A stretch of DNA of 27,248 bases from an uncultured Hippea sp. Lineage in GTDB: Bacteria; Campylobacterota_A; Desulfurellia; JAADFJ01. Positions within the stretch are counted from its first letter, which is position 1. Every line of letters starts with the position of its first letter. The stretch covers positions 1 through 27,248 of the forward strand of contig CAJVZA010000020.1 of the NCBI GenBank assembly GCA_913009315.1, given 5' to 3'. This document shows, in pieces, positions 14,306 to 23,627 of this stretch. A program made the position numbers and the translations under genes. A model generated the notes under the pieces. It ran no database searches. It had not been told where the DNA came from and saw nothing but the letters and a program-made list of their open reading frames with translations.

Positions 14306-15490
14306 CTATATCTGTTTTGTATTACCGGGAGCGGACAGATACCTCCAAGATGATAATATGGAAGATGCGAGCAGAGCTGTCCTTTCCCTAAAACTTGATT
14401 TCATCATATACTCTCTTTTACTGTGATCGTCATCACCTATAGGCCCCATTCCATCAACAACTGCAGTTTTCATTTTAGATATAAAATTTGCATCCGAAAC
14501 ACCATAACGATATTCTTCTGTGACTTTAATATGAAGTTTGTCGGATTCTTTTTTAATCAAATCAAAAAGCTGTCTGTTTTTTTTGTTCTGTTCCATCGGA
14601 GGGCGAAAAGAAAAGAATTTATATTTTGTCTTTGTTCCCTGAGTATTTGAGTGATTGCATATATTCTCTATCTTTTCTATTGTATCATTTTCTTCTTTCT
14701 CGGTAGCAAATCTTATATCAACGGAAGCAGCCGCATATTCCGGAACCGTATTGGGACCTACTCCACCCTTAACCGTTCCTACATTTACAGTCACACCGTC
14801 TTCAAAGTTATTCAAAGATTCAAGCGATATAATCTTGTCGGCCATTTCTAATATAGCGCTCGGTTTGCTGCCTTTAATGAACGCAGCATGCGAAGCCTTG
14901 CCCTCTACCTCAATGTTTGCACTTATTTTACCTTTTCTGCCTGTTACTATATCACCATTCAATCCTCCGCATTCGAGAACGTACGCAAATGAGCTTTTTT
15001 TCGCAACATCCATTATAATTTGCTTAGAAGAAGGCGAACCTATCTCCTCATCAGAGTTAAAAACAAAAATTATCGGAATATCATTCAAAACGCCAAGCTT
15101 TTTGAGGATTCTTAATGCAAAAATTCCCACAACAAGACCGCCCTTCATATCTATTACCCCCGGACCATAAATGAAATCTTTATCTTCTCTGCAGCTGTTG
15201 AATCCGAGTGTTTCCGGAAATACGGTATCCGTATGTCCGCAAAGCATTATTGGTTTAAAACCGGTATTATTGTTCTTATAAAAAACGAGATTGTTTCCCA
15301 GGTTATCGTTTTCATGAATTTCGACAGTAAAATCAAGCCGCTCCATCTGATCTTTTACCGTATCTCCCACCAGATCAACACCTTTTTTGTTGTATGTATA
15401 GCTGTTAATCAGTACCATTTTTTTTAGGAGGGCGAGCATTTCCTGCTCGTCCTCCTCTATCAGTTTCAAAATTTTATCTGTTATGTTCAC
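14306..15490 (-). CDS. M20-family metallopeptidase / amidohydrolase
   Basis: M20 enzymes hydrolyse amide bonds of peptides or N-acyl amino acids with two zinc ions. The GTG at 15490 is chosen because it overlaps the TGA of the preceding gene (GTGA), giving 394 residues, a normal M20 length. Zinc and catalytic residues are visible: H86 and D88 in CGHTDTV, bridging D114 in GVIDMKGG, base E148 and ligand E149 in NSDEEIG, E173 in LECGG, and a C-terminal His in DDDHSKREY. A dimerisation (lid) domain starts near GRKGKISANIEVEGKASHA. It most resembles the glutamate carboxypeptidase / ArgE-DapE branch, and the substrate is not determinable. As the last gene of the GntR operon it may cleave, or trim, the product of the ATP-grasp ligase (inference). 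Confidence 0.88.
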   Translation of the reverse strand: MNITDKILKLIEEDEQEMLALLKKMVLINSYTYNKKGVDLVGDTVKDQMERLDFTVEIHENDNLGNNLVFYKNNNTGFKPIMLCGHTDTVFPETLGFNSCREDKDFIYGPGVIDMKGGLVVGIFALRILKKLGVLNDIPIIFVFNSDEEIGSPSSKQIIMDVAKKSSFAYVLECGGLNGDIVTGRKGKISANIEVEGKASHAAFIKGSKPSAILEMADKIISLESLNNFEDGVTVNVGTVKGGVGPNTVPEYAAASVDIRFATEKEENDTIEKIENICNHSNTQGTKTKYKFFSFRPPMEQNKKNRQLFDLIKKESDKLHIKVTEEYRYGVSDANFISKMKTAVVDGMGPIGDDDHSKREYMMKSSFRERTALLASSILSSWRYLSAPGNTKQI

Positions 15491-17067
15491 TCTTTGAATT
15501 TCCGGAATGAAAACCTGTTTTCGTTGTATACTTTTGGATCTGCATCTGGATATGATACTTCGGCGCCGCTCCACGGTTTTCTCAATATTATGCTGCCGTT
15601 TTCTTTTCTCGCAACATTGCTTCTGTGCAGAGGTATTTTGCCTCCCGCCGCCGCTATATATCTTGGTATGGCATCACCTGAAATATTACCATACATGCTT
15701 TCAACAATATCTCTTCCAACTTCCACTGGAACCCGCAAATGAGAGAATTGAGGATTTCTGAAGCTGCAGTTAAATAAATAATAAGGTCTTACATATGCTT
15801 CCTGCATAGTTTCGCACAATTTCCACATTTTATATTTAGTATCGTTTATGCCTTTAAGTAAAACAGCTTGATTTAAAATGGCACTCACCCGTTTTGATAT
15901 CATTTTGAATGCTTTTTTTGATACAGGTGTTATTTCCTGGGCGGTGTTAATCTGGACAACCACTCTTAGCGGTTTTTTATCATTGCTTTCAGCTAATATA
16001 TCGAGCAGCTCAGGATCTATTCTCTGAGGTGTGGTTATAGGAATTCGCGTGCCGAGCCGTTTCATTTTTACATGTTCTATGCTATCAAGCTCATTTAGAA
16101 TCCATTTGACATATTTGTTCGGTAAAACAAAAGCATCGCCTCCGGTAATTAAAACATCTCTTATGTTTGGATTGCTTCTGATATAGTTTAAAGCATCTTC
16201 GTAAGCTTCTTTTGAATAGATTTTATCCATTTTGCCTATATGTGCTATTCTTAGGCAGTGCGTACAGTACATCGCGCATATATTGGTGACTTTCATGGCC
16301 GCTACCTGCGGATAAAATTGATCAATTAATCTTGCCGGAGAATGGTCTGCGGCGACAGGAGGTATTTCTACGCCTACGTTGTCTACCATTTCACCGGTAG
16401 GAACGGATTGCTGCAAAACAGGATCATCCGGTTTTCCCGGTATTATCAAACTTGCATAATACGGAGTAAGTCTCATTCTATAATTTTTAGTTACCCTGGT
16501 AACATCCTCAATGGCTTTTTTTGGAAGAGCTATAACTTTCGATAGAGTATCGACATCCTCAATGGCATACCTCAATTGCCCGGAATAGCTATTCCATTCC
16601 TCATCGCTAATACCCATTATTTCTTTTATTCTTGCTGCATTCTGCTGAATCTGGTCCCACAATTCTATTCCGCTTGGCGCTGCCTTTTTTTTATCGGCAA
16701 GATAATCTCTAACACGCTCATTCGCCTGTTTTACAATGTTAAGCGCTTTGCCCACTCTTCCGCCTATGGTAACATAATGTTCATCTATATCTTGATGTTT
16801 TATGGCAAGCGTGATCAGTTTTTTCCTGTTGATGCCGAAATCATTTGGCGATATTCCTTTATTATTTCTCAAATCAAGCAGCTTGCGGAACAAATCAACA
16901 ATCGGTGTTGTTCTTTTGTTGTCTTCCGAATTCTTCAACAAGCCGATAATTTTATTTTTGTCTTTTTCTGCAGCATTTCGCTTGACTTTCGTATCCTTAA
17001 AAAGGAAATCCAAAAGTTCATTTGTTTCACTGTCAATTTCTGATCCATTGACACTCATATTATCCAT
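15487..17067 (-). CDS. KamA-type radical-SAM aminomutase, substrate unknown
   Basis: This radical-SAM enzyme of the lysine 2,3-aminomutase family has 526 residues, longer than usual (about 415-440), because about 140 extra, mostly helical residues precede the core. The 4Fe-4S motif is C264-x3-C268-x2-C271 (NICAMYCTHCLR). R273 matches the Arg that holds the substrate carboxylate, ITGGDA the SAM-contacting loop, and K477 (AAAGGKIPL) the PLP lysine. Clostridial KamA holds the lysine side chain with two Asp: one in CDLSLG, the other just before GGGGK. Here the positions read CSFRNP (S435) and IAAAGGK, so both seem lost. It therefore probably shifts the amino group of another amino acid. The ATG at 17067 is 7 bases after GGAGG; a TTG at 17070 is less likely. 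Confidence 0.9.
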   Translation of the reverse strand: MDNMSVNGSEIDSETNELLDFLFKDTKVKRNAAEKDKNKIIGLLKNSEDNKRTTPIVDLFRKLLDLRNNKGISPNDFGINRKKLITLAIKHQDIDEHYVTIGGRVGKALNIVKQANERVRDYLADKKKAAPSGIELWDQIQQNAARIKEIMGISDEEWNSYSGQLRYAIEDVDTLSKVIALPKKAIEDVTRVTKNYRMRLTPYYASLIIPGKPDDPVLQQSVPTGEMVDNVGVEIPPVAADHSPARLIDQFYPQVAAMKVTNICAMYCTHCLRIAHIGKMDKIYSKEAYEDALNYIRSNPNIRDVLITGGDAFVLPNKYVKWILNELDSIEHVKMKRLGTRIPITTPQRIDPELLDILAESNDKKPLRVVVQINTAQEITPVSKKAFKMISKRVSAILNQAVLLKGINDTKYKMWKLCETMQEAYVRPYYLFNCSFRNPQFSHLRVPVEVGRDIVESMYGNISGDAIPRYIAAAGGKIPLHRSNVARKENGSIILRKPWSGAEVSYPDADPKVYNENRFSFRKFKE

Positions 17068-18436
17068 CAATATACCTCCAGAGAGTTTTTTTACCTAATT
17101 CTATACCTTCCGATGCATCTTCTCTGTTTTTGGCAACAGATACGACTCTTCCCAGAAACCCTTCTTTTTTTATTGTAAGATTGCCGCCCGGATATTCCAA
17201 TATCATATATCCTTTACCGATTTCCCGATTCGCCACATTCGCAAATAGCTTTCTTTCATCTGTTTCTGGTATCAAACATTCCTTTGTGGTTACATCTTCC
17301 TTAAGCTTGAAATTGTATGTAGACCAGCACACTTTGTCGGAATTATCATCTAATTCCATTGCATTCTCAGGCAGGATATCTTTTAAAACTGCATAATATT
17401 CTATTTCCGGTATGCTCGCAGAACCTTTTGGTAAAGATTGTTCCATAGTACAGCAAAATTCCATTGTGGTGCCCTGTTTTCTTGCATTTACCTCTATAAA
17501 ATAGATATCTTCGTTTTCATCTACTATAAAATCACAGCCGAATATACCTCGATATCCTCTTTCAGCCAAAACTCTTCCAACAATTCTTGTGTATTCTTTT
17601 AATTTCCCCTTAAGTTTGCTATTTAGAATTGAAGGGTATGTTGAACCTGTAAACTTGTTGCCCTCTTCAATCCTTTGATCCGCAATACCTGCAATATAAA
17701 TATCAGACTTATTGGCAACTACACCCAAAACTGTAGGATCATATTGATGCGGTATATATCTTGTTATCAGATATTGCTTATGTTCATCTTTAAATTCTTT
17801 AAGAATGTCATCAAGTGAATATGTTATTGCACTGTTCATTCCGGCAGCACTATAGCTTAAACTTACAAAAATTCCGTCTTTCCATTTTTTTCTCAGTTTC
17901 TCTGTTGAATCTATCAATTCATCCAAACCGCTGCATATTCGAAAATCTGCAAGCGGTACAATTCCGTTAAGCAGAGTATATTGCAATACCTTGTTGTTTA
18001 TTTCATTGGCAATAGTACTTTTAGGTCCCAAAAGCTGAACGCCATCTATAGAATCAAGAGTCATTTCCGGATTACTTTCATGCATATAAACAAAGAGATT
18101 ACCCTGATTTTTCACGATTTTCTTTATAATTTCGACTATATATTTGCTGTCAGACACAGAACGGACAAATTGGTCCGATTTGATTCTCGATGCAACAAGT
18201 TTGTTGTCGTTTTCGAGAATTTTTTTCGAGGGTGAATTTACAACAATAATATTTTCATAGTTATATTGCTTCATTACATCAGGTACGACAGCAACAATTC
18301 CGACATCTCTTTTAAATTTCTTTGCAAAAAAGTCTTTAAGAAAAAGATTCATGCCATAGGACTTCAGCTCGCCGATATAAAAAAAATAATATCTGTTTCT
18401 ATCCAAATTGATGTTTGAAAAGAGGATATCTTTCAT
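17060..18436 (-). CDS. ATP-grasp ligase, probably amino-acid or peptide forming
   Basis: This 458-residue ATP-grasp protein carries an N-terminal pre-ATP-grasp domain (about 1-130). The nucleotide-binding part includes LITRYIPHQYDPTVLGVV, and the metal-binding strand has D302 (CDFIVDENED), E315 and N317 (FIEVNARKQGTT), the hallmark acidic-Asn set. A C-terminal domain (about 385-458) resembles the closing domain of carboxylase-like ligases (EGFLGRVVSVAKNREDA). The family activates a carboxylate as acyl-phosphate and joins it to an amine. I do not recognise a named subfamily. It starts at the gntR stop (TAATG) and overlaps the KamA-like gene by 8 bases, so the ligase and mutase are made together. 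A mutase followed by a ligase recalls the PylB/PylC order, but the sequences do not identify it as such. Confidence 0.8.
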   Translation of the reverse strand: MKDILFSNINLDRNRYYFFYIGELKSYGMNLFLKDFFAKKFKRDVGIVAVVPDVMKQYNYENIIVVNSPSKKILENDNKLVASRIKSDQFVRSVSDSKYIVEIIKKIVKNQGNLFVYMHESNPEMTLDSIDGVQLLGPKSTIANEINNKVLQYTLLNGIVPLADFRICSGLDELIDSTEKLRKKWKDGIFVSLSYSAAGMNSAITYSLDDILKEFKDEHKQYLITRYIPHQYDPTVLGVVANKSDIYIAGIADQRIEEGNKFTGSTYPSILNSKLKGKLKEYTRIVGRVLAERGYRGIFGCDFIVDENEDIYFIEVNARKQGTTMEFCCTMEQSLPKGSASIPEIEYYAVLKDILPENAMELDDNSDKVCWSTYNFKLKEDVTTKECLIPETDERKLFANVANREIGKGYMILEYPGGNLTIKKEGFLGRVVSVAKNREDASEGIELGKKTLWRYIDG

Positions 18437-19092
18437 TATTTGCTTTCCGTTTCTTTTAAATTCGCTATTTTTGTGCCGGTTTCATAATAATGATTTCTAA
18501 TGCATGCCTCTACTTGTTCTGCATTCCCGGATTTTAATGCATCTACTATAATTTTATGCCTCTCTCCTATTTCAGACGGAGAGTAAAGCATTGCAAGATA
18601 TTTAAAAAACATCAGATGTGATTTTATGCTTAATTTTTTTGTAAAACCAACCAACTGTTTGTTGCCGCTTCTTGAAAATATCATTTCATGAAATTTGTCA
18701 CCCAAATCTATCAACTTTATATGCTTGCCGCTTGATGCAAGCTCTTCCATATTTTCTGTCATTTTATAAAGCCGATTTATTCCATAAACGGAGAAATTAT
18801 CAATTGCATCCCTTGCTGCATATCCCTCTAAAACACCTCTTGTTATATATGAGTCAACAATATCCTTTGGTGATAAATTCATTACAAAGTTCCCTACTCT
18901 TGGACGATATTCTATTATTCCGTTACTTATCAGCTCTCTAAGAGCTTCTCTGATGGGAGCTCTGCTGATACCGAGTTTGATAGCCAGTCGATTTTCTTTG
19001 ATTTGATCGCCCGGTTTAAGTTCTCCTTTTAAAAGACAGTTGTATATAAATGATATTACCTGTTCTTCATATGTTGTTTTTGAAATAATCAT
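18436..19092 (-). CDS. GntR-family regulator, FCD (FadR) subfamily
   Basis: This 218-residue regulator has an N-terminal winged helix (about 8-70), with GELKPGDQIKENRLAIKLGI, SRAPIREALRELISNGIIE and a YRPRVGNFV wing. An all-helical FCD effector domain follows, with His-containing metal or ligand sites in KFHEMIFS, ERHKIIV and RNHYYETG. The ATG at 19092 is preceded by AGGAGG with a 7-base spacer; a longer reading frame up to 19110 lacks a ribosome site. FCD regulators sense small carboxylates or amino acids and usually repress transport and catabolism. An ATTGTCGACAAT palindrome overlies its own start site (19130-19141) and recurs at the TAXI promoter. This points to autorepression and control of uptake (inference). 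Confidence 0.92.
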   Translation of the reverse strand: MIISKTTYEEQVISFIYNCLLKGELKPGDQIKENRLAIKLGISRAPIREALRELISNGIIEYRPRVGNFVMNLSPKDIVDSYITRGVLEGYAARDAIDNFSVYGINRLYKMTENMEELASSGKHIKLIDLGDKFHEMIFSRSGNKQLVGFTKKLSIKSHLMFFKYLAMLYSPSEIGERHKIIVDALKSGNAEQVEACIRNHYYETGTKIANLKETESK

Positions 19093-19120: not shown

Positions 19121-19169
19121 TATCTGCCGATTGTCGACAATACACTAACACGAAAGGATAAAAAGTCAA
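19121..19169 (-). promoter_or_regulatory. gntR promoter with GntR operator
   Basis: Read on the minus strand: TTGACT (19169-19164), a 16-base spacer, TAGTGT (19147-19142), then the perfect palindrome ATTGTCGACAAT (19141-19130). The operator abuts the -10 and covers the predicted start near 19135. The 19 bases at 19121-19139 are identical to 23162-23180 upstream of the TAXI gene. TTGTC..GACAA half-sites resemble known FCD-type operators. Confidence 0.7.
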
Positions 19170-19199
19170 ACGCTTTCTGATATAATTTCCGATAAAATA

Positions 19200-19228
19200 T
19201 TGACAATACGGCTTGCGAGAAGTATATT
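19200..19228 (+). promoter_or_regulatory. uspA promoter
   Basis: TTGACA (19200-19205), a 17-base spacer and TATATT (19223-19228) give a near-consensus sigma70 promoter. Transcription would start near 19235, leaving about 27 bases of leader that contain GGAGGG. It fires away from gntR and has no ATTGTCGACAAT site. Confidence 0.65.
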
Positions 19229-19261
19229 TGATGCCAAATAATTACGGAGGGAAAAACAAAA

Positions 19262-19732
19262 ATGTACAAAAATATTCTTGTAATGACCGATTTCTCTGAA
19301 GATTCGAACTATGCCGCACAAGTAGCTTGTGAAATGGCAAAAAAATTCGAAGCAAATTTATATATCCTGCATGTTGCACATATATCCGGCGATTTTACCA
19401 TCCTGCTTGATGAGCACGAATATGAAGATATAAAACGGCGCGTAGACGAATCGATAAAAAAAGAGCTGTCAGAAATGATAAAAAATGTTCCCTGCCTTAA
19501 AGATATCAAATACAAGCATATAGTCAGAAGAGGAATACCTTATGAAGAAGGTTTGAAAGAGGTAAAAAGCGGAAAATATGATCTTCTGGTTGTCGGATCT
19601 CATGGCAAATCGAATGTTACAACATTCTTTTATGGAAGCACAACAGCTAAGCTGACGCGAAGATCTCCTATAAGTGTGCATATGACGCGCCTTAAAAAGA
19701 GACAGGATCATATTGCTGCGGCGAATAAATAG
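19262..19732 (+). CDS. Universal stress protein, UspA family
   Basis: This 156-residue single-domain Usp is cytoplasmic. The N-terminus MYKNILVMTDFSEDSNYAAQ has the usual strand and acidic turn. The ATP-binding signature G-2x-G-9x-G-(S/T) is seen as VVGSHGKSNVTTFFYGSTTAKL, about residues 109-131, so it probably belongs to the nucleotide-binding branch. GGAGGG lies 8 bases before the ATG at 19262. It is divergent from gntR and convergent with the TRAP permease gene, separated from it by a terminator. Usp proteins often sit beside TRAP transporter genes, and some bind TRAP subunits; whether this one does is unknown. Confidence 0.92.
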   Translation: MYKNILVMTDFSEDSNYAAQVACEMAKKFEANLYILHVAHISGDFTILLDEHEYEDIKRRVDESIKKELSEMIKNVPCLKDIKYKHIVRRGIPYEEGLKEVKSGKYDLLVVGSHGKSNVTTFFYGSTTAKLTRRSPISVHMTRLKKRQDHIAAANK

Positions 19733-19890
19733 TTGACTTATCCGGCACAGACAATCCCGGGATGTCAGCGGCTGCTTTATTGCCAATTACTTGCTTCGAA
19801 AGCCGCACAAGTTGTTTGCACGACTTGTATCGGGTTTGCATTTGAGCACTTATTGTTTTTTATGCCTGATTATCATACCGAAAAACAGTT

Positions 19891-19938
19891 AAAAAAGCTT
19901 AATTATTTTGTCAACTGTGTCAATAATTAAGCTTTTTT
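19891..19938. terminator. Bidirectional rho-independent terminator
   Basis: A 17-base perfect stem, AAAAAAGCTTAATTATT (19891-19907) with its complement at 19922-19938, encloses a 14-base loop. The T-rich arm ends the stem in either direction. It separates convergent uspA and the TRAP permease gene and can stop both. Confidence 0.85.
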
Positions 19939-19956
19939 AAATTGTCTTTAGATTTA

Positions 19957-22005
19957 TTAATTCACAGCTGCAGCAACTCTTATCCTGAATTTCTGCCCAA
20001 GATATAATGTTCCCAGCACTGCAAGTCCGATCAGATACATAAAGTATTTAAAATGAACGGGAACGTGAAAGAAATCTATCAAGCTGGCCGGATTAAACAA
20101 AATCAGAGAGGCTAAAAGGAAGAACGGTATTTCATACCATCTGTTTTTTGTTATAAACCACCCCTGAAGTGCACTTGCAAAAGCAAATGCTCCAAGCACT
20201 GCCATAGAAAATATCATCAATATCTTCGGAAAACTTGAGACATGATACAGTATCAGGTCCGGATTAAAAACAAACATAAACGGCAGAATAGCCGTTCTCA
20301 TATCATATATAAATCCCTGAACAGCCGTAGGTATAGGATCGGTATCGGCAAGTGCCGCGGCAGCATAAGCCGCCAAACCGACAGGTGGAGTATCGTCTGC
20401 AATAATACCAAAATAAAAAACAAAAAGATGCGCCGCCATAAGAGGTACAAAGAAACCGTAGTTGTGAGCCAGTGTGACAATTACAGGAGCCGTTAGTGAC
20501 GCCATAACAACATAGTTTGCGGTTGTGGGCAGACCCATTCCAAGCAATAAACTTGCCACTGCAGTAATAATTAAAAGAAGGTATATGTTGCCGCCGGAAA
20601 GTATAGCAACAAGTTCCGTAATCATACTCCCTATGCCCGTTGCAACAAGTCCCACAACAATGCCGGCTGATGCACAAGCCAAAGCAACAATAACCATATT
20701 TCGTGATCCGGCAACAAATGCTTCTATCGTTATATTTATCGATGACGTTATGGCATCAATAAAGCTTACATTTCCACTTTTAATTTTCCTCAATTCTTGA
20801 TAAAGTATGGTCACCATAAGCAGCAATATCGTTCTAAAAGCTGCCATTGCCGGCGAATGTCTAAGAACGACAAGCTCTATAATAAGCCACCCTATCGGTA
20901 TCAGATAATGCCATCCGTTCTTTAAAACTTTCCTGATGTTAGGTAAGTCTTCTTTAGCTATACCCTTAAGTCCGAGCTTACTCGCTTCAAGATGTGCAAC
21001 AAAAAACAACGCAAAATATGCAACAAACGCCGGTATTGCAGCGGCTTTCACAACCGCCAAATAGGGCACGTTTACATACTCCGCTATAATGAATGCGGCT
21101 GCACCCATAATCGGAGGCATGAGTTGACCGTTGATACTTGCCGCAACTTCAGTAGCGGCAGCTTTTTTTGCAGGATATCCGGTTTTTATCATAAGCGGTA
21201 TTGTGAAAGTTCCCGTTGTCACAACATTTGCAACACTCGATCCCGAAACAAGTCCGGTTAAACCGCTTGCAACAACAGCGGCCTTTGCAGGTCCGCCCTT
21301 GTATTTACCCAAACCGGCCAGAGCAATATCTATAAAAAATTTCCCCGCACCGGCTTTGTCAAGCATGGCTCCAAGTAAAACAAACAGATAAACTATACTT
21401 GTTGAAACTCCCAAAGGAATACCGAAAATGCCTTCAGTTGACAAAGACAGCTGACTTACATACTTATCAAGCGTAACGCCTTTATACGCTATAACCTCGG
21501 GAAGATGCTGTCCTAAAAACCCATAAAGTGTGAACAAAATAGCGACAGCCGGAAGAGCCGGACCTATAGCTCTCCTCGTAGCTTCCAAAACCACCAAAAT
21601 CACAAGTAGTCCAAAGATCAGATCCATGCTGCTTGGGGAGCCCATTCTCATAGATATACCGATCCACTCTATCATTATATAGAGAGCGGCGGCAACTCCA
21701 ATCACAGCTAAAATATAATCTATAAGCGGTATACCTTTTTTTTGAGAGAGAGGTGAAAAATATTTTATATGGTGTTTTTTTAAAAACGGAACACTCAAAA
21801 AAATAAGGGATACTGCAAAGGCAAGATGTATGGCTCTTGAAAAAGTACTGTCAAGTGTCCAAAAACTTGCTATTGAAAGCTGAAAAATAGCCCATAAAAC
21901 CGCTATAACGGTGTAAAGCGTTTTTTCTGCTTTGTTAAAAACTCTTATATTGCCGGTTTCTTCTTTTAAAAGATCTTCTAACTCCTTGTTTTTGTTTTCC
22001 GCCAT
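19957..22005 (-). CDS. TRAP transporter permease, fused DctQM type (TAXI)
   Basis: This 682-residue inner-membrane protein has many hydrophobic segments. A charged cytoplasmic start (about 1-22) leads to small-subunit-like helices in the first 150 residues. The large DctM-like part then has GLVSGSSVANVVTTGTFTIP, INGQLMPPIMGAAAF, LLLGMGLPTTANYVVMASL and IADDTPPVGLAAYAAAALAD, the signature stretches of fused TRAP permeases. TAXI-type TRAP systems import organic or amino acids such as glutamate-like substrates with a sodium gradient. The ATG at 22005 is preceded by AAGGGG. It lies 75 bases after the TAXI gene, with a GC-rich hairpin between. The 3' end reaches the shared terminator. Confidence 0.95.
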   Translation of the reverse strand: MAENKNKELEDLLKEETGNIRVFNKAEKTLYTVIAVLWAIFQLSIASFWTLDSTFSRAIHLAFAVSLIFLSVPFLKKHHIKYFSPLSQKKGIPLIDYILAVIGVAAALYIMIEWIGISMRMGSPSSMDLIFGLLVILVVLEATRRAIGPALPAVAILFTLYGFLGQHLPEVIAYKGVTLDKYVSQLSLSTEGIFGIPLGVSTSIVYLFVLLGAMLDKAGAGKFFIDIALAGLGKYKGGPAKAAVVASGLTGLVSGSSVANVVTTGTFTIPLMIKTGYPAKKAAATEVAASINGQLMPPIMGAAAFIIAEYVNVPYLAVVKAAAIPAFVAYFALFFVAHLEASKLGLKGIAKEDLPNIRKVLKNGWHYLIPIGWLIIELVVLRHSPAMAAFRTILLLMVTILYQELRKIKSGNVSFIDAITSSINITIEAFVAGSRNMVIVALACASAGIVVGLVATGIGSMITELVAILSGGNIYLLLIITAVASLLLGMGLPTTANYVVMASLTAPVIVTLAHNYGFFVPLMAAHLFVFYFGIIADDTPPVGLAAYAAAALADTDPIPTAVQGFIYDMRTAILPFMFVFNPDLILYHVSSFPKILMIFSMAVLGAFAFASALQGWFITKNRWYEIPFFLLASLILFNPASLIDFFHVPVHFKYFMYLIGLAVLGTLYLGQKFRIRVAAAVN

Positions 22006-22037
22006 CCGCAGCCCCTTCTATAAAGCATTAATAAAAT

Positions 22038-22059
22038 GGGCGGCACATAAGCGCCGCCC
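22038..22059 (-). promoter_or_regulatory. Intercistronic GC-rich hairpin
   Basis: GGGCGGC (22038-22044) and GCCGCCC (22053-22059) form a 7-base all-GC stem with an 8-base loop in an otherwise AT-rich gap. No T-run follows on the minus strand. It is more likely to protect the upstream TAXI message from 3' decay, or to lower permease expression, than to end transcription completely. Confidence 0.55.
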
Positions 22060-22080
22060 GGAAACGAAAATTATCTAAAT

Positions 22081-23076
22081 TTACTTGATCAGACTTTTAG
22101 GTATATACTTAATCAACCCGGATTCTCTGTAATATCTTAGTGCTCCTTTGTGAACTGGGGCAGACATGCCTTCAAGCATGTTTTTCTTTGTTAAAACGGC
22201 GAACGCAGGATGAAGTTTTTTGAATTTTGAAAGATTTTCAAATACCTCTTTTGTAATAGCATAGACGATGTTTGCCGGTTCTTTCTTGCTTGTTACCAAA
22301 GTAGCCTTAACACCTACGGTCTCTATATTTTTTGTATTAACTGCCATAGGATAAAATTTTCTCAAAATTTCCGCTTTTGCGTAATATGGATGATTCTTTA
22401 AAAGCTTAACAACATTAGGACCGACTATAGAAACAATTCTTACCTTGATTCTTCCGGATGTAGCTTCTTTTATGTTTCCATTTGGATGGCCTACTGTATA
22501 GAAGAATGCGTCAATTCTTCCGTCCTGTAAAAGCATTGGCGCTTCGACAGCCTTAACATATTCAGGATGTATATCCTTCAATGAGATTCCGAATGCCTTT
22601 AAAACATCCTTTGAATTCTGCAGTTGTCCCGAACCCGGATTTCCAATATTTACCCTTTTGCCTGCCAGATCCGACACACTCTTGATGCCGCTGTTAACGG
22701 AAGCTATTAATGTTATGGACTCAGGATGAATCGTGAAGACACTTCTTAGATTCTTTTGAGGACCTTTATTTTTCCACTCGGCCAAACCATGAACGGCTTC
22801 GTATTGTCTATCAGACTGACAAATACCGAAATCAAGATCTCCATGCAATACTGAGTTAATGTTGTAAACGGACCCTGCTGTGGATTCAACAGTGGCCTTG
22901 ATCCCATACTCTGCAAATTTTTCGTTAACCATTTTTGAAATTGCACCACCGGTTGGATAATAAACTCCGGTAATGCCGCCGGTTCCAATAGTAACAAATA
23001 TTCTTTTGCCATAACTCAAAGAAACCAAGGTCAGCAAGAATACTGCTACCATAAATAATGTCTTTCCCCTACGCAT
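22081..23076 (-). CDS. TAXI-family TRAP solute-binding protein
   Basis: This 331-residue periplasmic binding protein has a classic signal peptide: MRRGK, a hydrophobic core at about 7-20, and probable cleavage after SYG near residue 23. The mature start, IFVTIGTGGITGVYYPTGGA, is diagnostic of the TAXI family. Further blocks include ESTAGSVYNINSVLHGDLDFGI, SVSDLAGKRVNIGNPGSG and DGRIDAFFYTVGHPNG. It captures a small organic or amino acid and hands it to the fused permease encoded next. TAGGAGG lies 6 bases before the ATG. It is the first gene of the operon, with a leader of about 100 bases. The promoter carries the same palindrome as the gntR promoter. Confidence 0.95.
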   Translation of the reverse strand: MRRGKTLFMVAVFLLTLVSLSYGKRIFVTIGTGGITGVYYPTGGAISKMVNEKFAEYGIKATVESTAGSVYNINSVLHGDLDFGICQSDRQYEAVHGLAEWKNKGPQKNLRSVFTIHPESITLIASVNSGIKSVSDLAGKRVNIGNPGSGQLQNSKDVLKAFGISLKDIHPEYVKAVEAPMLLQDGRIDAFFYTVGHPNGNIKEATSGRIKVRIVSIVGPNVVKLLKNHPYYAKAEILRKFYPMAVNTKNIETVGVKATLVTSKKEPANIVYAITKEVFENLSKFKKLHPAFAVLTKKNMLEGMSAPVHKGALRYYRESGLIKYIPKSLIK

Positions 23077-23161
23077 AAAAACCTCCTAATAAATTTTTAA
23101 GTATATTCAATCAATTACCCCCTATCCTTTTTTGGTGATAGATCCACTGCAGAGCTCCTCA

Positions 23162-23210
23162 TATCTGCCGATTGTCGACAGTATATTAACATAGAAGAAT
23201 ATAAAGTCAA
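23162..23210 (-). promoter_or_regulatory. TRAP-TAXI promoter with GntR-type operator
   Basis: Read on the minus strand: TTGACT (23210-23205), a 16-base spacer, TAATAT (23188-23183), then ACTGTCGACAAT (23182-23171), one base off the perfect palindrome at gntR. The order and spacing are the same as at 19121-19169, and 19 bases (23162-23180) are identical. The operator sits on the start site, as expected for repression. Confidence 0.72.
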
Positions 23211-23316: not shown

Positions 23317-23627
23317 CAGGTTGTTAAAAAATGTTATTGCGAGCGCAGCGCGGCAATCCCAGCTTCTTCAGTGTATCACAGACATCCTGCCTGTGGTGAG
23401 ATTGCGAGCTCAGCAAAGCTCTAATGAGACTGCCGCGGCCTTCGGCCTCGCAGTGACAAAAGAGAGAAGGTCATTGCCATGGACATTTTCCCCTCGGTCA
23501 TTGCCATGGACATTTTCCCCTCGGTCATTGCGAGGAGCGAAGCGACGAAGCAATCTCAGAAAATACCGGTAATAAAGGAATTGCCACGCACTTTTCGGCG
23601 TTCGCAATGATATTTTTCAACAGCCTG
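23317..23627. repeat. Composite palindromic repeat block with terminal inverted repeats
   Basis: The ends, 23317-23341 and 23603-23627, are inverted copies that agree at 21 of 25 positions (CAGG-T/C-TGTT at the tip, ATTGCG at the inner edge). Inside are several ATTGCGAG units, including GCGAGGAGCGAAGCGACGAA (23528-23547). GCAATCTC and GCAATCCC appear as inverted partners, and GCCGCGGCCTTCGGCCTCGC forms a hairpin. A 27-base unit is repeated exactly at 23469-23495 and 23496-23522, with a third partial start. GC content is visibly higher than in the flanks. CATTGCGAG-type repeats are known as dispersed non-coding elements in many bacteria and often produce false ORFs. Confidence 0.75.
23469..23522. 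repeat. 27-base tandem duplication
   Basis: There are two exact copies (23469-23495, 23496-23522), followed by the first 9 bases of a third that continues into the CATTGCGAG unit. Each copy begins GGTCATTGCCATGG and ends TTTTCCCCTC. The perfect identity suggests recent slippage. Confidence 0.9.

Follow-up and report, generated by a model that had tools for sequence, protein, structure and literature searches.

How are a gene for a GntR-type regulator and a gene for a TAXI-family TRAP solute-binding protein connected, when the two lie apart on a contig and their promoters are built alike? Both belong to the 27,248-nucleotide stretch of contig CAJVZA010000020.1 from an uncultured Hippea sp. that was analyzed here (hereafter the window). 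An earlier note on this DNA had taken the two promoters for the targets of one GntR regulon. Judging from comparisons of the sequence with its own genome and with relatives, we consider it highly likely that an autoregulated FCD-type GntR repressor controls its own operon (gntR and the ATP-grasp, KamA and M20 genes) as well as the TAXI-TRAP operon, through two candidate operators. The features concerned are collected in Table 1.

Table 1. Genes, promoters and candidate operators of the locus (window coordinates)
Feature	Position	Strand	Description and basis
M20-family hydrolase, gntR operon	14306..15574	-	PF01546, PF07687
KamA-family radical-SAM aminomutase, gntR operon	15487..17070	-	TIGR00238 over cut-off
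ATP-grasp ligase-like protein, gntR operon	17060..18436	-	PF02655; orthologue after gntR in Desulfopila
gntR, FCD-domain (FadR-subfamily) regulator	18436..19092	-	218 aa; PF07729, PF00392; orthologues
Operator A, gntR operon (candidate)	19126..19141	-	palindrome ATTGTCGACAAT (19141-19130) and third half-site GGC (19128-19126)
Promoter A	19142..19169	-	-35 TTGACT (19169-19164), 16-nt spacer, -10 TAGTGT (19147-19142); read from sequence
Universal stress protein, divergent from gntR	19262..19732	+	PF00582; linkage to TRAP genes in relatives
TRAP fused permease	19957..22005	-	TIGR02123, 629.5 bits
TAXI-family TRAP solute-binding protein	22081..23076	-	TIGR02122, 317.6 bits; similar to TAXI structure 8s4j
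Operator B, TAXI-TRAP operon (candidate)	23167..23182	-	palindrome ACTGTCGACAAT (23182-23171) and third half-site GGC (23169-23167)
Promoter B	23183..23210	-	-35 TTGACT (23210-23205), 16-nt spacer, -10 TAATAT (23188-23183); read from sequence

We compared the two promoters base by base. It turned out that the -35 box, the spacer, the -10 box and the following ATTGTCGACA(A/G)T stand in the same register at both sites (19121-19169 and 23162-23210), as the earlier note had described, and that the 19 identical bases it had counted form one consecutive run, TGTCGACAATCGGCAGATA. The palindrome, ATTGTCGACAAT at site A and ACTGTCGACAAT at site B, is followed at both sites by an identical CGGCAGATA. 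The distance between the two operators is 4,041 bp, and the center of operator A lies about 43 nt before the gntR start codon when the start is taken at ATG 19092. Over 60 nt the two sites share 43 bases, while the best other place in the window reaches 30; with the palindrome masked, 32 of 48 bases remain identical against a background of 25. The likeness is confined to about -35 to +20 and drops to background on both sides (31 of 80 and 21 of 70), which indicates a shared promoter-operator module rather than a long duplication. Besides, TTGAC is found in relatives from the same class at a position similar to the -35 box of promoter A.

The regulator has an N-terminal GntR winged helix (PF00392, 54.4 bits, cut-off 27) and a C-terminal FCD domain (PF07729, 64 bits, cut-off 24.3). 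Its translation probably starts at ATG 19092 and not at the listed 19110, giving the protein length of Table 1, because AGGAGG stands 7 nt before this ATG and the orthologues begin there. It is the only FCD-domain protein found in its own genome (assembly 88% complete), and one of two proteins found there with a GntR helix-turn-helix. The operator form TTGTC..GACAA, which had been proposed as typical of FCD-type regulators, agrees with the FadR-subfamily consensus NyGTM-N0-1-KACNy with N0 (Suvorova et al. 2015, PMC4494728). According to the same work, Arg28, Ser40 and Gly59 of the helix-turn-helix go with G or C at the variable base of TKGT, while Pro40 avoids G/C. In a hand alignment to FadR, the window GntR has Asn, Pro and Arg at positions 28, 40 and 59, so its DNA-binding domain fits TTGT rather than TGGT.

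The palindrome alone is not rare. Within the window, the 12-mer with up to two mismatches was found 5 times (1.77 expected), and allowing up to one mismatch gives 10 places across the 1.74-Mb genome, compared with 7 for the reversed control; the remaining 8 of these places lie within genes or, in one case, in an intergenic stretch that lacks the other parts of the motif. We therefore rejected the bare 12-mer as evidence on its own, since the reversed control turns up about as often. The extended 14-mer TGTCGACARTMGRC, however, is found exactly in this genome only at sites A and B. As the assembly is 88% complete, further regulon members or regulators may be missing from this count. In 6 of 25 genomes of the class the 14-mer occurs exactly, always at the gntR orthologue or at the TAXI promoter of the window, and the reversed control gave 1 match. 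Because a few chance matches are expected in so much DNA, the evidence lies in the positions of TGTCGACARTMGRC and not in their number.

We also scored the window with a matrix built from sites that exclude the window. Site A is the best match (21.9) and site B the second independent one (17.8), followed by the next independent place at 9.1. Could the match then be chance or generic sequence? The near-equal counts of the 12-mer (10 against 7) would allow it, but the extended motif is position-specific across genomes, random sequence attains a score of 18 only three times in 19.6 Mb, and the orthologue footprints described below largely refute it already; we give this explanation practically no weight. 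No Rfam family was found to match anywhere in the window, which gives no support for a leader RNA of any known family.

To see whether the palindrome follows the regulator, we looked upstream of gntR in relatives. Orthologues are present in class members G010, G011, G016, G020 and G024, in Desulfopila sp. IMCC35008 and in other genomes of its phylum. The palindrome stands immediately upstream of gntR in 12 of the 13 relatives from the two groups that have the orthologue (G010, G012, G024, G016, G020, G011, Desulfopila, G422, G219, G266, G308 and G348), which gives, with the window included, seven class members, Desulfopila and five further genomes of its phylum. In G012 the site lies at a contig edge, before a gene start that reads like gntR, and in G020 it is cut by the contig end. 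A site was looked for upstream of the G167 orthologue and of a gntR paralogue in Desulfopila (L097), and was absent from both. Desulfopila carries another exact copy of the site, located between gntR and the genes for ATP-grasp, KamA and M20. These make up the enzyme operon also seen in the window, and its control is thereby supported; the one weaker Desulfopila match that was placed is inside a gene. What's more, no motif was found at the ATP-grasp-KamA operons of G356, G053, G176 and G099, in which no such GntR was detected at E 1e-40, so the motif tracks the regulator and not the enzymes. The proposed link between palindrome and GntR is thus supported by the footprints, by the lack of the motif at enzyme operons without the regulator, by the finding of a single FCD protein in the genome, and by a published operator with the identical sequence that belongs to another FCD-type GntR.

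This published operator belongs to PrpR (PA0797) of Pseudomonas aeruginosa, an FCD-type GntR repressor that controls the 2-methylcitrate cycle (PMC9765439). Its predicted operator is ATTGTCGACAAT, identical to the 12-mer of site A, and a fragment from the prpR upstream region that holds this 12-mer is shifted by the protein. The same 12-mer would also suit a PrpR-type propionate regulator sensing 2-methylcitrate in the window. We regard this as very improbable, since no prp or other 2-methylcitrate-cycle genes were recognized in the window or beside the orthologues at the neighboring loci read, where the neighbors are amino-acid enzymes and TRAP transporters. Another difference is that a third half-site is not described for PrpR in the sections of that paper covered here.

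The third half-site makes the conserved element larger than first noted. Its consensus is AWTGTC|GACAWTMGRC, in which an inverted pair of TGTC/GACA half-sites is followed 7 bp downstream by a third half-site, GRC. Among 11 gntR sites (leaving out the near-identical G219 and the cut site of G020), A-6, TGTC|GACA, T+6, G+8 and C+10 are invariant, position +9 is A or G, and the flanks carry little information. The outer bases shift symmetrically: the class has ATTGTC|GACAAT and the phylum of Desulfopila AATGTC|GACATT, the pattern that a dimer or another two-fold symmetric binder should give. The window has GGC and not GAC as its third half-site, which we counted against control of both operons by this GntR. 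In the operator of G010 (L040, 9875-9898), four half-sites form a near-perfect 24-bp palindrome, TTGTCTATTGTCGACAGTAGACAA.

Operators of the FadR subfamily in general resemble these sites in the consensus, in the 2-nt spacing class GT-N2-AC and in having extra half-sites, which in 13 groups are weaker and lie 7-12 nt from the center (Suvorova et al., PMC4494728). The difference is that in the gntR clade conservation of the third half-site comes close to that of the palindrome, and the regulon is not mentioned in the parts of that text covered here. One could go further and suppose that the true operator of the clade is an obligatory element of three half-sites, in which a direct repeat follows the inverted pair at 7 bp, that the repressor binds in some form beyond a simple dimer (a tetramer, say, or two overlapping dimers), and that the layout marks a clade governing TRAP transporters and beta-amino-acid enzymes in several lineages. 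We hold this extension to be doubtful.

As for the transporter, the TAXI solute-binding protein and the fused TRAP permease lie side by side and both exceed their TIGR02122 and TIGR02123 cut-offs, so the pair is a TAXI-TRAP system. The divergent universal stress protein gene shows no operator at its own promoter. Many relatives show linkage of this gene to TAXI-TRAP genes, a situation reported for other TRAP systems too (TeaD and the VC0430 locus). Between the TAXI promoter and an xseA-like gene, two perfect copies of a 27-bp unit, GGTCATTGCCATGGACATTTTCCCCTC, stand in tandem (23469-23522) and adjoin GC-rich repeat-like sequence. The matrix search found no site, weak ones included, at the TAXI promoters of other class members and relatives, so among the genomes examined the operator at this promoter is specific to the window genome. 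The TAXI-TRAP genes adjoin this gntR in G011, G266 and G348 and lie about 8 kb away in Desulfopila, while in G099 they are found near ATP-grasp-KamA-M20 genes without the GntR; a paralogous GntR clade is linked to another TRAP system (DctPQM). Of the regulon claimed in the earlier note, the palindrome-GntR link holds, while control of the TAXI operon is less secure, being suggested by a site in this one genome and by conserved gene linkage.

Site B might also be a copied promoter fragment without regulatory role, with GntR controlling its own operon only. The roughly 60 nt shared by the promoters, 43 of them identical, would agree with copying, and so would the lack of a site at every other TAXI promoter examined. 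But the two promoters agree fully across the operator (19 of 19) and have diverged in spacer and flanks, a pattern suggestive of selection; site B retains the third half-site and the register; and TRAP genes stand next to gntR in the three genomes named above. We judge such a copy to be distinctly improbable. With control of both operons by GntR, the simplest account would be that the transporter operon of this lineage has an operator copy to itself, rather than being tied to gntR through a shared transcript or locus.

In the mechanism that we propose, a dimer of the FCD-type GntR would bind TTGTC.GACAA, helped by the third GRC half-site 7 bp downstream, and would thereby cover the -10 and +1 region of the gntR-operon and TAXI-TRAP promoters. 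Release of the repressor would be triggered by a substrate or intermediate, with a glutamate-like amino acid the likeliest candidate, and uptake and processing would be turned on together; the two operons would thus probably be switched as one. Atu1419 of Agrobacterium fabrum, also an FCD regulator, offers a comparison. Its palindrome spans 10 bp and is present more than once, with the sites located at promoter elements (PMC7797058); it differs in its operator, ATGTATACAT, in controlling hydroxycinnamate degradation, and in being tetrameric. As a variant of this mechanism, a GntR tetramer might bridge the two operators of the window and loop the DNA between them. The Atu1419 tetramer loops between palindromes 190 bp apart (PMC7797058), and the paralogous GntR clade has paired sites, but 4 kb far exceeds the Atu1419 example, and we find this variant improbable. 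The paired sites of the paralogues (AATGTCGACATT palindromes about 280-306 bp apart; L098 1797-2168 and L105 14409-14722) lie upstream of operons in the order RidA, PLP enzyme, DctPQM TRAP and gntR, a layout that would suit DNA looping. They share their core palindrome with the gntR clade of the window, which we count in favor of the link between this palindrome and such regulators.

Which compound might be the inducer? Lysine 2,3-aminomutase binds the lysine side chain with Asp293 and Asp330. The KamA-like protein of the gntR operon retains the SAM and PLP residues, with the CxxxCxxC cysteines, Arg134 and PLP lysine in place, but aligned Ser and Ala replace Asp293 and Asp330, and its scores fall short of the cut-offs for the glutamate, lysine and arginine aminomutases. 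It is probably an aminomutase. The protein (15487-17070) also has an N-terminal extension. Its gene is found with the ATP-grasp gene, and often with the M20 gene too, in several genomes. Among relatives, this gntR stands before an aminotransferase gene, or before KamA and a glutamine-synthetase-like gene, which makes amino-acid metabolism the theme shared by these neighborhoods.

VcGluP of Vibrio cholerae is a glutamate-binding TAXI-TRAP system (PMC11574862). We took 8s4j as its sequence for the alignment, since the residues of 8s4j fit the numbering in that paper. With residues matched by eye, the TAXI protein of the window keeps Y45, S75, Q93, H123, E125, Y200 and G203, and differs in M201T, D157Q and S40G. 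Both loci have a binding protein of the TAXI family and a universal stress protein gene beside TRAP genes, while no GntR link is reported for VcGluP in the sections of the paper covered. From the residues kept in the TAXI protein, together with the residue changes and sub-cut-off scores of the KamA-like protein, our best guess, of low confidence, is that the inducer would be a glutamate-like amino acid.

A literature search, covering few subscription journals and regulon databases, gave no paper describing a regulon of this GntR clade, and looking for texts that combine TAXI, GntR and glutamate gave no result. Systems of this kind are already known, because the 12-mer is the predicted operator of PrpR and PrpR binds DNA that holds it; the novelty lies in the regulon, which comprises this clade of GntR proteins, the composite operator and the targets.

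In conclusion, the locus provides a concrete predicted regulon for little-studied bacteria, although the kind of gene control is an ordinary one. The nearly invariant third half-site is a clean test case for the role of extra half-sites in GntR regulators. Besides, a TAXI-TRAP transporter is tied to a set of enzymes (ATP-grasp, an unusual KamA and M20), which narrows the search for the substrates of both.
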